DNA of 64,000 nucleotides from Chloroflexota bacterium. GTDB taxonomy: Bacteria; Chloroflexota; Dehalococcoidia; Lucifugimonadales; UBA3495. The notes below the pieces were generated by a model. The model was given only the letters and a program-made list of their open reading frames with translations, was not told the DNA's origin and ran no database searches. The DNA lies in the NCBI GenBank assembly GCA_009840165.1, contig VXOG01000028.1:153937-217936 (forward strand), in the 5' to 3' direction. Shown piece by piece: positions 1-59,367 of the stretch (position 1 is the stretch's first letter; each line of letters opens with the position of its first letter). The position numbers and the translations under genes are program-made.

Positions 1-717
1 GCTGCGCTGGCCGGCGCGCTGGTGGTCGGGCCCCGGCTGGGCAAGTTCCGGCGAGACGGCTCGGCAAGAGCCACACCACCTTCCAACGTGGTGCTGGTAA
101 CTCTGGGCGTGTTCGTCCTCTGGTTCGGCTGGTTCGGATTCAATGGCGGTTCTCAACTGGCGTTGGGTTCAGCCTTTGACGCAGTGGCTATGAGCAACGT
201 TCTGGTCAATACTAACCTGGCGGCGGCGGCCGGGGTGATCACCGCGCTGTCTCTGTCCAGGCTGGTGTTCGGACGGATCGACCTCTTGGTTGGCCTGAAC
301 GGAGGTTTGGCCGGCTTGGTATCGATCACAGCCGGGCCGGACATAGTTCCGCACGCCTGGTCGGTGCTCATCGGCATAGTGGGCGGCGCGATCTGTACCG
401 GCGGGATCAAGTTCCTGGAGATCGTCAAGGTTGACGACGTAGTGGGCGCGGTGCCGGTTCACCTGTTCGCCGGCATCTGGGGCACGATTGCCGTGTGCAT
501 CGCGGCCGGCGGTAACTTCGTTACGCAGTTGATCGGCATACTCTCAATCGGCGCATTCGTGTTCGGCCTGTCCTGGGCGGTCTGGTTCGCCATCGAAAAG
601 ACCATCGGCGTCAGGGTGTCCGAGGTGACGGAGCGGTTGGGGCAAGATACTGCCGAGCTGGGTATGGAGTCCTACCCCGAGTTCGTGCTGATGCCCGAGC
701 CAATGGACGACGACTAG
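1..717 (+). CDS. amt: Ammonium transporter (Amt/MEP/Rh), C-terminal part
   Basis: This is the C-terminal part of an inner-membrane ammonium channel. The frame is open from the first base, so the start lies outside the window; 238 residues remain. Several hydrophobic helices are visible, and the signature VDDVVGAVPVHLFAGIWG begins at about residue 144. It matches the Amt segment that carries the second pore histidine (here about residue 154), although Leu follows the His where Gly is usual. The cytoplasmic tail is acidic and ends in MDDD. A strong terminator follows about 30 bp downstream. No glnK/PII gene follows; whether one precedes it cannot be seen. Confidence 0.93.
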   Translation, partial: AALAGALVVGPRLGKFRRDGSARATPPSNVVLVTLGVFVLWFGWFGFNGGSQLALGSAFDAVAMSNVLVNTNLAAAAGVITALSLSRLVFGRIDLLVGLNGGLAGLVSITAGPDIVPHAWSVLIGIVGGAICTGGIKFLEIVKVDDVVGAVPVHLFAGIWGTIAVCIAAGGNFVTQLIGILSIGAFVFGLSWAVWFAIEKTIGVRVSEVTERLGQDTAELGMESYPEFVLMPEPMDDD

Positions 718-18577: not shown

Positions 18578-18651
18578 TGGCTGCCCCGCCTGGGCTCGAA
18601 CCAGGGCTTACAGCTCCAAAGGCTGACGTGCTACCGCTACACCACGGGGCA
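18578..18651 (-). tRNA. tRNA-Gln (anticodon TTG)
   Basis: On the minus strand a cloverleaf folds: acceptor TGCCCCG pairs with CGGGGCA (7 bp), the D-arm is GTGT/GCAC, the anticodon loop CTTTGGA has TTG at 18617-18619, and the T-arm is CCTGG-TTCGAGC-CCAGG. Discriminator G73 and the U1-A72 pair are typical of tRNA-Gln. CCA is encoded at 18578-18580. A T-T mismatch closes the outer end of the anticodon stem. It lies opposite to the flanking genes. Confidence 0.93.
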
Positions 18652-19730: not shown

Positions 19731-20123
19731 AGGAGAATGCCGGTCCGGCCGGGTGGCCGCCGCGAGACTGCAAGGTCTCGGGGAGGAAAGTCCGGGCTCC
19801 ACCGGACAGGGTGCTGGGTAACGCCCAGGCTCCGAGGCGTTCGCGCCAAGGGGACGGAAAGTGGCACAGAAACATACCGCCGTCGGCTGCCTAGCAGCAG
19901 CGGTAAGGGTGAAATCGGGCGGTAAGAGCGCCCGGCCACGTGCGGCGACGCACTGGCGGCCAAACCCCACCTGGAGCAAGGCCAAATAGGGGAACCATGG
20001 GCGTCCGGCCCGTTCCCGGGTTGGCTGCTTGACCCCAGCGGCAACGCTGGGGCTAGATAGATGGTCACCGTCCGCCGAGAGGCGGTTACAGAACCCGGCT
20101 TACAGGCCGCCCGGCGTTCTCCT
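19731..20123 (+). ncRNA. rnpB: RNase P RNA (bacterial class A)
   Basis: A 393-nt RNA. Terminal helix P1 pairs AGGAGAATGCCGG (19731-19743) with CCGGCGTTCTCCT (20111-20123). Conserved core segments occur in order: GAGGAAAGTCCGGGCTCC, ACAGAAACATACCG, GGGTGAAATCGGGCGGTAAG, AAACCCCACCTGGAGCAAGG, TAGATAGATGGTCACC and ACAGAACCCGGCTTACAGGC. It is the catalytic subunit that matures tRNA 5' ends. A CCCTCTCCC repeat begins 6 bp after its 3' end. Confidence 0.97.
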
Positions 20124-48819: not shown

Positions 48820-48922
48820 CGTAAACGTCACCAAGTGGTGGAGAGGGCATTGGTGCAAACCGATGAACGGCTCAATGCCTCGCGGAAAGACCCTGTTGGG
48901 CGCAGAGCGGGATCCAAGGCAA

Positions 48923-49096
48923 CACCGGGCAGGTCTCCTGGCTTACGGCTCCAAGCCCTGCCGACGCCTTCCCGCCTTCCGCTACTCGCGGTGGCAGTGG
49001 CAATTCGCCGGCCGGCTCCCCGTTTACAGTGGCGCAACCGCGACGGACTTTCACCGTCTTCCCAATTAAGCCGAACTTGGGTTATGGCGCCCGGTG
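48923..49096 (-). promoter_or_regulatory. Cobalamin riboswitch
   Basis: The minus strand contains the B12 box AGCCAGGAGACCTGCC (complement of 48928-48943) and upstream core segments GGGAAGACGGTGAAAGTCC and GCGGTTGCGCCACTGTAA. P1 is closed by CACCGGGC (complement of 49089-49096) and GCCCGGTG (complement of 48923-48930). Binding of adenosylcobalamin should favour the terminator at 48789-48819 and switch off cbiE, cobN and the genes behind them. Confidence 0.95.
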
Positions 49097-49672
49097 TATC
49101 ATTTTCAAGTTTTAAGCGCGCACGATGCGCCTCAACAATGTAGCCCTACCGGGAACGGTTGTCAACGGGAAATTCGCCTCACGCTTAACCGCTTTCGCCA
49201 TAACTTTCACCGCGAGTCCGCCTCTGGCCGACGTGGCTATCTCGACGCCAGCCGCCAATTCGCAAGCCTCCGGCGCCCCACAAGTCGTTTCACTTCCGGC
49301 GCATGTCAATCCGATGACATTTCCCCCTTGCCCCCAAGCCTCACTCGCTCCTACCCTTATAACTGTCAACTCCACCATCTTCCTCACCAAAAGCCACCCC
49401 TTGATCAACCAGCCTCTGTCATTGCGCGTCTGCCTCTGGCGGAAGTGGAGATCCCGCCGTCAGCCGTCAATCCTGACCTCCAAATCCGCTCGCCAGCCCG
49501 CCCGATCCCCTCAAATAGCCACCAGAACCGCCCAATCCACCACCATTCACCCCCGCGAACCTGTCCATAGCCCTCTCAAATGAAAGGAAATGAACGGATA
49601 TGACCGGAAAATCCTCAATCCTGATAATCCTCTAATCCCGCGAATCCTGATTCTGACAATTTCGAGGTAACC
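49097..49672. other. Intergenic stretch with a phased AATCCT repeat
   Basis: No convincing gene is seen in these 576 bp; an open frame at 49125-49583 (plus) has an erratic, Pro/Ser/Thr-rich composition and no family resemblance. The strand is unusually C-rich. The last 65 bp hold five AATCC units (49610-49652) just upstream of a small gene. Promoter elements for the minus-strand riboswitch transcript probably lie at its left end. Confidence 0.5.
49610..49652 (+). repeat. Phased AATCCT repeats
   Basis: Five units beginning AATCC occur at 49610, 49617, 49626, 49634 and 49643, spaced 7-9 bp, with the two AATCCTGAT units being the best match. Similar AATCCTG-type repeats are known from intergenic DNA of environmental bacteria. 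They end 20 bp before the 49673 start. Confidence 0.55.
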
Positions 49673-58045: not shown

Positions 58046-59119
58046 CTAATCGGCCGCGACGGCCGCTTCTCGCCCCAGCTTGTCGTAGGCCCATTCCAGC
58101 AGATCCACCGTTTCATCCCACCCGATGCAGGAGTCGGTAATCGAAATGCCGTAGTCGAGTGTCGCGGGATCGGGGCCGAGTTTCTGGGCGCCGGCATTGA
58201 TGTTGCTTTCCAGCATCACGCCAACCAGGTTGTCGTTGCCTTCCAGGCGCTGGGTGACAACGTCCTCGAAAGCGATGTGCTGGCGGGTGTGGTCTTTGTT
58301 GGAATTGCCGTGGCTGCAATCGACTACCATGTTGAGGGGCGCGTTGGCCTTGCGCAGGGCGTCCTCGGCGACGGCGATGGAGCGAGCGTCGAAGTTGGTG
58401 CCGCTGCGTCCGCCGCGCATCACCAGGTGGCAGTTTTGATTACCGCGGGTTTCAACGATGGAGGCCTGTCCATCGTGGTCGATACCCAGGAACGCCTGCG
58501 GCGTGCCGGCCGCTACCAGCGCGTCAACCGCAGTTTGCGGGTCGCCGTCGGTGCCGTTCTTGAATCCGACGGGCATGGAAAGGCCGGACGCCATCTGCCG
58601 GTGAATCTGGCTCTCGGTGGTGCGGGCACCGATAGCGGCCCAGGTGACCAGGTCGGCCACGTATTGCGGGACGATGGGGTCCAGGAATTCGGTGGCCGAG
58701 CAGAGTCCTGCCTCGGCTATCTCCATGAGCAACCGACGCGCCCGGTGCAGCCCATCCTCAATCTGGTAGGTGTCGTTGAGGTTAGGGTCATAAATCAGAC
58801 CTTTCCAGCCCACGGTGGTGCGCGGCTTTTCAAAGTAAACCCGCATCACGACCATGATGCGGTCGCTGAGCTGCTCCGCCAGCGGCTTAAGCCGTTCGGC
58901 GTAGTCCAGCGCGGCGGCATGGTCATGGATTGAGCAGGGGCCCACGATCACGGCGAAACGCTCATCCTCGCGGTTGAGAACCGCTTCGAGCTGCCGGCGT
59001 CCCTCCAGGACCGTCTGTTCAGCGGCGGTACTCAAAGGAATCCGAGCCTCCAGTTCCGATGGTCGAATCAGCGCGTTGTTGCTCATTACGTTTACGTCCT
59101 TGGCCGGTGAGATTGCCAT
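58046..59119 (-). CDS. aroG: 3-deoxy-7-phosphoheptulonate synthase (DAHP synthase), type I
   Basis: A 357-residue enzyme that condenses phosphoenolpyruvate with erythrose 4-phosphate, the first step of aromatic amino acid synthesis. VIVGPCSIHDHAAALDYAER, KPRTTVGWKGLIYDP, LCSATEFLDPIVPQY, VMRGGRSGTNF and DCSHGNSNKDHTRQ are hallmarks of the AroG/AroF/AroH type; two Cys/His metal ligands are kept. AGGAGG six bases upstream supports the ATG at 59119. It lies behind a leader-peptide attenuator at 59170-59367, which should make its expression respond to Phe and Tyr supply. Confidence 0.95.
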   Translation of the reverse strand: MAISPAKDVNVMSNNALIRPSELEARIPLSTAAEQTVLEGRRQLEAVLNREDERFAVIVGPCSIHDHAAALDYAERLKPLAEQLSDRIMVVMRVYFEKPRTTVGWKGLIYDPNLNDTYQIEDGLHRARRLLMEIAEAGLCSATEFLDPIVPQYVADLVTWAAIGARTTESQIHRQMASGLSMPVGFKNGTDGDPQTAVDALVAAGTPQAFLGIDHDGQASIVETRGNQNCHLVMRGGRSGTNFDARSIAVAEDALRKANAPLNMVVDCSHGNSNKDHTRQHIAFEDVVTQRLEGNDNLVGVMLESNINAGAQKLGPDPATLDYGISITDSCIGWDETVDLLEWAYDKLGREAAVAAD

Positions 59120-59169
59120 TTTGTCCTCCTGCATTGATGACCTTGACCGCTCCGACTGTGCGTTTAATC

Positions 59170-59203
59170 AAAAAGGACTTCAGCCTCGATCCGGCTGAAG
59201 TCC
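59170..59203 (-). terminator. Attenuator terminator before the DAHP synthase gene
   Basis: On the minus strand GGACTTCAGCC (complement of 59193-59203) pairs perfectly with GGCTGAAGTCC (complement of 59175-59185) around a 7-nt loop, followed by five T (59170-59174). An alternative structure uses the same left arm: CCGGCgtgTGAAG (59235-59247 complement) can pair with CTTCAGCCGG (59191-59200 complement). Confidence 0.82.
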
Positions 59204-59226
59204 TGTCCTGGTGGTTTTCACGAAGG

Positions 59227-59331
59227 CTATCGGGCTTCACACGCCGGATTCACGCTGACCGGGCGGCGGTAAGCGTAAAAGTAAAACGGGCGGCAATAAC
59301 CGACAGTGATGTGACCGTTGGCGGAAACCAT
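59227..59331 (-). CDS. Phe/Tyr leader peptide of the DAHP synthase gene
   Basis: A 34-codon open frame from ATG at 59331 to TAG at 59227, not in any large gene. Residues 16-21 are Phe-Tyr-Phe-Tyr-Ala-Tyr, with another Tyr at 12 (MVSANGHITVGYCRPFYFY). The ATG lies exactly 7 nt after the -10 hexamer, so the transcript should start at or near the A, leaderless. Its last third overlaps the antiterminator. Such a peptide lets a stalled ribosome sense charged tRNA-Phe and tRNA-Tyr. Confidence 0.72.
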   Translation of the reverse strand: MVSANGHITVGYCRPFYFYAYRRPVSVNPACEAR

Positions 59332-59338
59332 GACGGAA

Positions 59339-59367
59339 ATCCTACGCCGCGACCGGGCGGTTGTCAA
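59339..59367 (-). promoter_or_regulatory. Promoter of the leader peptide-DAHP synthase unit
   Basis: On the minus strand a perfect -35 TTGACA (59362-59367) and -10 TAGGAT (59339-59344) are separated by 17 bp. The -35 overlaps the trpA stop codon. The first base 7 nt downstream of the -10 is the A of the leader-peptide ATG. Confidence 0.7.

Follow-up and report, generated by a model that had tools for sequence, protein, structure and literature searches.

We propose that aroG, a DAHP synthase gene, is subject in this Chloroflexota bacterium to ribosome-mediated attenuation of the trp/his type, exerted by a leaderless Phe/Tyr leader peptide that would respond to charged tRNA-Phe and tRNA-Tyr; we put the probability of this reading at about 86%. 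The element lies on the minus strand of the window, the whole 64,000-nucleotide stretch of DNA that was analysed.

Between trpA and aroG, the minus strand carries in succession TTGACA, 17 nt, TAGGAT, 7 nt, an ATG, a short open reading frame and a terminator. The -35 hexamer TTGACA (59362-59367) contains the TGA stop codon of trpA (59366-59364), and the -10 hexamer TAGGAT occupies 59339-59344; promoter, overlap with trpA and ATG are all found where the original prediction had placed them. The presumably leaderless ORF (59227-59331) runs from the ATG at 59331-59329 to a TAG stop at 59229-59227 and encodes the 34-residue peptide MVSANGHITVGYCRPFYFYAYRRPVSVNPACEAR. Translation confirms the announced Phe-Tyr-Phe-Tyr-Ala-Tyr cluster (FYFYAY) at residues 16-21, to which residue 12 adds one extra Tyr. 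Within the ORF, shortly before its stop, lies the 5' strand of the antiterminator, CCGGC-gtg-TGAAG (59235-59247). As had been claimed, it pairs through 10 bp and a 3-nt bulge with CTTCA-GCCGG, made of the left arm of the terminator and the first bases of its loop. The terminator stem-loop itself (59174-59204) has 12 bp and a 7-nt loop and is followed by a U-tract (59170-59174) whose first U doubles as the last base of the stem; the perfect 11-bp stem with T5 described before at 59170-59203 was thus essentially right.

Profile matches identify both neighbours: the downstream gene encodes an AroFGH-type DAHP synthase (TIGR00034, 464.6 bits; cut-off 173.2), and the upstream gene is trpA (TIGR00262, 225.4 bits; cut-off 102.35). 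The aroG gene spans 58046-59119 on the minus strand. Its ORF opens at 59134, and translation probably starts at the ATG at 59119, preceded by AGGAGG at 59130-59125, rather than at the longer ORF start; the same start was implied by the folding range chosen in the original prediction. The assembly (115 contigs, 96% complete) holds a single match to the window's DAHP synthase. A simple scan of 10 kb is unconvincing on its own, since promoter-like and terminator-like sites appear there at chance frequency (3 versus 3.1 in shuffles and 10 versus 8.6, respectively); the promoter of the aroG leader has the joint best score and its terminator the longest stem listed. Elsewhere in the window are a cobalamin riboswitch (48911-49109, minus strand, 104 bits), a class A RNase P RNA (19740-20118, plus strand, 260 bits) and a tRNA (18581-18651, minus strand).

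In the proposed mechanism, RNA polymerase would start at the leader AUG or within a few bases of it, and a ribosome would load on the 5' end of the RNA without a Shine-Dalgarno sequence. When Phe- or Tyr-tRNAs are scarce, it would stall in the FYFYAY cluster, leaving 59247-59235 free to pair with the left arm of the terminator, and the polymerase would read into aroG. With charged tRNAs, the ribosome would reach the stop codon and cover 59247-59235, the terminator would form and transcription would end.

Searches for the DAHP synthase protein covered 60 relatives and 234 genomes of the same order and gave matches in 36 and 172 of them, respectively. The sample consists of 127 oriented loci from 127 genomes; with the exception of L021, which came from the search of 60 relatives only, all belong to the 172 matched genomes. 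A leader was called where a strong sigma-70-type promoter, a -10 box ending no more than 12 nt ahead of the start codon and an aromatic cluster occurred together. By this definition leaders were found at 54 of the 127 loci, a share that overstates that of the whole order because the roughly 46 matched genomes outside the set appear to come mostly from family f36 (0/29 within it). The same call was made at 0 of 127 reverse complements and in 3 of 2540 dinucleotide shuffles, confirming that the arrangement recurs far beyond chance. The leader loci are spread over 24 of 59 genera and 11 of 25 families, in which the Phe/Tyr codons and both hairpins reappear with compensatory changes, as the original prediction would have it for homologous loci. 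The remaining 73 loci gave no leader call, among them all those examined in families f36 and f19 (0/12 in the latter). The aromatic cluster alone, taken as at least 5 F/Y/W per 8 residues in the best short ORF of the upstream 410 nt, is present at 61 of the 127 loci; the corresponding counts are 2 of 127 for the reverse strand and 14 of 635 for shuffles.

The leader recurs at 12 of the 13 loci from the window's own genus; the one without it, L127, encodes a divergent DAHP synthase (51% identity), and a further, fourteenth genome gave no match to the protein. Across these 12 loci there is hardly any change in the TTGACA hexamer (identical in all when aligned), in the codons TTTACGCTTACCGC, in the antiterminator strands or in the terminator, and the -10 box reads TAnnAT in every case; the promoter spacer and the N-terminal codons, by contrast, vary. 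The trpA gene lies upstream in 10 of the 12. Among the 35 leader loci of the whole set that have 1200 nt or more of sequence upstream, it was found at 14 and gave no hit at the other 21; the element is therefore not bound to trpA.

The 54 leaders comprise 1550 residues, including 132 Phe, 216 Tyr and 24 Trp; this abundance of Phe and Tyr and the scarcity of Trp make Tyr and Phe the likely signals. Some peptide ends are also conserved (EAR in the window's genus, AGEGLV in several relatives). They overlap the paired RNA strands, however, and so do not necessarily imply a functional peptide.

The distance between the -10 box and the start codon predicts a leaderless start. It measures 3 nt at two loci, 4 nt at two, 6 nt at one, 7 nt at nine, 8 nt at five, 9 nt at fifteen, 10 nt at nineteen and 12 nt at one, so that the box ends 6-10 nt ahead of the start in 49 of the 54. 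As transcription usually begins 6-7 nt past the -10 box, the prevailing spacings of 7-10 nt predict a 5' UTR of about 0-4 nt, which leaves no room for a Shine-Dalgarno site. This suggests that in most leaders the 5' UTR is very short rather than strictly zero. Nor would a leaderless start be universal, as the -10 box and the start lie 26 nt apart at two loci of genus g12. Within the window's genome, the pattern TTGACA-16..18-TAnnnT-5..9-ATG has 10 matches, compared with 0 for a reversed control; a looser version has 22 compared with 10. Leaderless genes have been reported in 4 of 12 Chloroflexi genomes, at about 4.7% of genes, according to a 2011 survey (PMC3160421).

All but two of the 54 leader loci yielded a terminator (52 loci), with a median energy of about -20.1 kcal/mol and a median distance of 25 nt past the leader stop. 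Folding of the window's leader yields the two competing forms separately. When the last 9 nt of the right arm are left out, the antiterminator is the minimum-energy form at -27.5 kcal/mol, and a fold begun 5 nt past the ORF gives the terminator at -26.9 kcal/mol (z -5.4). If both hairpins are offered in 95 nt, the terminator is favoured at equilibrium (-35.7 kcal/mol); the antiterminator must therefore act co-transcriptionally, ahead of the synthesis of the right arm. For the leader as a whole the fold reaches -65.2 kcal/mol (z -5.1), its antiterminator strand being paired with upstream codons in a pairing that spans the stop codon.

Taken singly, the window's antiterminator exceeds chance only to a moderate degree: an equally good fold is reached by 11 of 200 shuffles, and 16 of 200 do as well in a duplex-energy test. 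Moreover, 11 of 54 foreign terminators pair better with this leader than its own, and for three other loci of the genus (L006, L007 and L008) 102, 105 and 164 of 200 shuffles, respectively, match the antiterminator. The strength of the case is thus comparative. Where a terminator is present (55 loci), the mean energy of the antiterminator duplex is -20.5 kcal/mol; it is -13.6 if the ORF segments are shuffled and -16.2 if genomes exchange their terminators.

Covariation was counted on 22 loci outside the window's genus, picked as alignable; the genus was aligned apart, its nearly invariant strands being uninformative in this respect. In these 22 loci the antiterminator has a covariation score of 0.238 versus 0.167 in shuffles and 32 double-changed cells versus 16.6, each equalled by 0 of 500 shuffles. 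Five measures were taken in all, and two did not exceed the shuffles in the same loci: pairs with a double change (11 versus 9.4; 123/500) and further pair types (23 versus 25.4; 462/500). Sliding the partner strand by 1-3 columns lowers antiterminator pairing from 69% to 24-50% and reduces both the covariation score and the number of double-changed cells. The terminator is 92.7% paired, with a score of 0.417 versus 0.234 and 31 double-changed cells versus 10.3 (0/500 shuffles).

In a set of 52 loci, the antiterminator's 5' strand begins a median 13 nt downstream of the final aromatic codon in the cluster, and its own end falls a median 5 nt short of where the stop codon ends. A strand so placed would be free beside a stalled ribosome and covered at the end of translation, which matches the classical attenuation logic invoked in the original prediction; geometry, conservation and covariation across the order all support it. 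A third hairpin is detectable at some loci: the codon cluster can pair with the antiterminator strand to form an anti-antiterminator, and at 20 of 52 loci this pairing is better than in 95% of shuffles, where 2.6 such loci are expected. In the window, 108 of 200 shuffles do as well by duplex energy, although the full-length minimum-energy fold does contain such a pairing.

Four other explanations were weighed. The attenuator could be real without being leaderless, its transcript starting farther upstream (for instance by read-through from trpA) and the ORF being translated in another way, such as from the weak Shine-Dalgarno-like AGGA in the -10 box. This AGGA stands 8 nt before the ATG in the window, and the 26-nt spacing at the two g12 loci would suit such a reading as well. 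Yet AGGA is present in only 3 of the 12 genus loci, the other -10 boxes being TAGCAT, TACGAT, TAACAT or TAAGAT, and the leader loci without trpA speak against read-through. As the 6-10 nt spacing is kept at nearly all of the called leader loci and the controls are almost empty, we regard a start farther upstream as unlikely. A simpler account would combine an ordinary trpA terminator with a chance small ORF and a constitutive aroG promoter. The position of the element directly behind trpA fits it, as does the chance frequency of promoter-like and terminator-like sites over 10 kb, but the conservation statistics and the 21 of 35 leader loci lacking trpA speak against it, as does an alternative hairpin that covaries; we leave it practically no weight.

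The two other explanations accept a regulatory leader and differ in what is sensed. The nascent peptide, through motifs such as FYFYAY or YYYFTG, might block the ribosome or bind free Phe or Tyr in place of codon starvation; TnaC is a loosely comparable case of peptide arrest with Trp. A Y/F-rich core followed by FTG is indeed common to several families. However, the N-termini diverge, the aromatic core itself varies (FYFYAY, FWFYAY, YYYYFF, YYYF) and those 3' codons that are conserved fall on the paired RNA strands, as codon sensing together with RNA pairing predicts, which makes peptide arrest quite improbable. A T-box or another riboswitch could sense the amino acid or the tRNA directly, but the ORF nearly fills the leader. 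A search of the leader region against Rfam, T-box included, gave nothing at the gathering threshold and, with permissive filters, only a chance hit of 9.7 bits (E 4.4); direct sensing by RNA is thus barely credible. Attenuation by a leaderless Phe/Tyr leader peptide remains our preferred reading.

Many loci of families f36 and f19 (L055, L060, L079, L089, L102, L104, L110, L125, L181) have another ORF upstream of aroG instead of the leader. Its aromatic C-terminus is conserved (LFTRRGSxSYSYR, LFTYGRSYRS or LFTSxRPYTYSG, each directly followed by the stop), no obvious terminator accompanies it, and it perhaps encodes an arrest peptide or serves translational control. By eye, several of these ORFs lie directly behind the apparent end of a chorismate mutase gene.

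A phylum-wide search for DAHP synthase gave matches in 47 of 301 genomes, and 28 loci were inspected, two of them from the same order and one nearly without upstream sequence. By inspection, one Chloroflexota locus of family f101 (L235) has, roughly 380-240 nt upstream of the match, a leaderless-looking leader that contains a WYRYAYF cluster; its apparent GTG start lies 7 nt past a TTGACT-18-TACACT promoter, and a terminator-like hairpin follows. Four others (L243, L244, L247 and L248) likewise appear to have aromatic leaders, with starts farther from the promoter; those of family f80 (L244, L247, L248) share a YFWFSYFA core and a C-terminal GK...LP.RGF motif. Beyond the phylum, inspection revealed aromatic leader ORFs with terminator-like hairpins before DAHP synthase in a Pseudomonadales MAG (L182; FFWFGFYYFFEK, followed by the stop) and in a Deltaproteobacteria MAG (L183; YRYYYCYYYTC).

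Among the nine other TTGACA-TAnnnT-ATG matches in the window's genome, two are Cys-rich leaders. The leader MQSSCKTVAFCTCSCPRTLGAGLP (with CTCSC) precedes a gene of the nitrite/sulfite-reductase family and is followed, by inspection, by a terminator-like hairpin (L210, positions 1501-1700, G000:C73:103128). The leader MLPTRRLILTCACPGT, with a less clear hairpin by inspection, precedes moeB/thiF and a cysteine synthase gene (L213, positions 1501-1650, G000:C84:37814). A gene for an Rrf2-family (CymR/IscR-like) regulator adjoins the latter leader. With a Cys leader defined by a promoter, a start within 12 nt and at least 3 Cys per 8 residues, one is present at 22 of 30 loci of the reductase-family gene (a set that covers L210 and L258-L284), the window's genome included, and in 0 reverse complements and 0 of 1160 shuffles; one of the 8 loci without it (L271) has almost no upstream sequence. 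All 13 same-genus reductase loci with upstream sequence carry TTGACA-17-TATAGT-8-ATG. At moeB, at least 2 of 30 loci have a Cys leader with 3 or more clustered Cys, a lower bound, as the moeB leader of the window's genome has fewer Cys and is itself missed.

A wider view, to which we would give even odds, is that this Chloroflexota lineage makes general use of leaderless leader peptides to sense amino acids, Phe/Tyr before aroG and Cys before the nitrite/sulfite-reductase-family gene and the moeB-cysteine synthase pair, and that these peptides are parallel to the actinobacterial ones or as old. Loading on a 5'-terminal AUG would then replace Shine-Dalgarno loading in coupling the first ribosome to RNA polymerase, and in the sister families without the leader the ORF just upstream of aroG, with its conserved aromatic C-terminus, would have taken its place.

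To our knowledge, leaderless leader-peptide attenuation is known mainly from Actinomycetota; if our main reading is true, it extends to another phylum, which is mostly uncultured. The comparison provides a covariation-supported family of about 50 natural variants. As their start-codon spacing is held while most else drifts, they form a natural data set on 5'-terminal AUG loading, one that bears on how a ribosome might load quickly enough to follow RNA polymerase across about 160 nt. It also offers a testable regulatory rule for organisms without cultures. Altogether, the original prediction is supported in both its observations and their interpretation; what we add is the order-wide family, the spacing statistic, the covariation, a third hairpin detectable at some of the loci and the Cys parallels.

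This kind of attenuator is already known; its membership in Chloroflexota appears to be new as far as the literature was searched, with good comparative support. The original prediction knew of no such leader in Chloroflexota, and likewise no leader-peptide element of this type was found described in the mainly open-access literature searched on Chloroflexi, Chloroflexota or Dehalococcoidia. The available text of a 2005 attenuator prediction for Actinobacteria mentions no aro attenuator (PMC1262725).

The nearest known analogue appears to be aroR-aroF of Corynebacterium glutamicum, which proves to be the FYF leader that the original prediction had mentioned upstream of a DAHP synthase gene in Corynebacterium. 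The attenuator was reportedly first described by Neshat et al. in 2014. The FYF leader peptide AroR is reported to precede aroF, with transcription depending on stalling (PMC11802643, PMC4046766, PMC3890552), and Phe limitation is reported to act and Tyr limitation not (PMC11802643). Both systems place a Phe-Tyr-Phe leader peptide ahead of a DAHP synthase gene, and stalling raises transcription, as is predicted here; they differ in phylum, and the Chloroflexota cluster is longer and richer in Tyr. The peptides are too short and too divergent to show common descent.

Like the proposed aroG attenuator, trpL, pheL and pheST of Escherichia coli work with mutually exclusive hairpins and an intrinsic terminator, but their leaders carry Shine-Dalgarno sites, in contrast to the presumably leaderless aroG leader. 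These E. coli attenuators, too, have a leader with cognate codons (PMC11802643). A further difference is that in E. coli the DAHP synthase genes aroF and aroH are under the control of TyrR and TrpR (PMC11802643).

Mycobacterial polycysteine leaderless short ORFs have been presented as amino-acid-responsive attenuators (Canestrari et al. 2020, cited in PMC9031893); they run parallel to the Cys leaders in the window's genome. Mycobacterial cys upstream ORFs were reported to lack conserved terminator hairpins (PMC1262725). The Chloroflexota leader, in contrast, has an intrinsic terminator.

A further parallel is the ilvBNC attenuator of C. glutamicum, said to have been described by Morbach et al. 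in 2000. Its transcript begins one nucleotide from the start codon of the IlvL leader, without a ribosome binding site, and follows a three-hairpin logic (PMC11857589). The aroG leader would resemble it in its predicted start at or near the leader AUG, in the presumed absence of a ribosome binding site and in a putative three-hairpin logic; ilvBNC differs in its Ile/Val/Leu codons, in being a branched-chain operon and in belonging to Actinomycetota.
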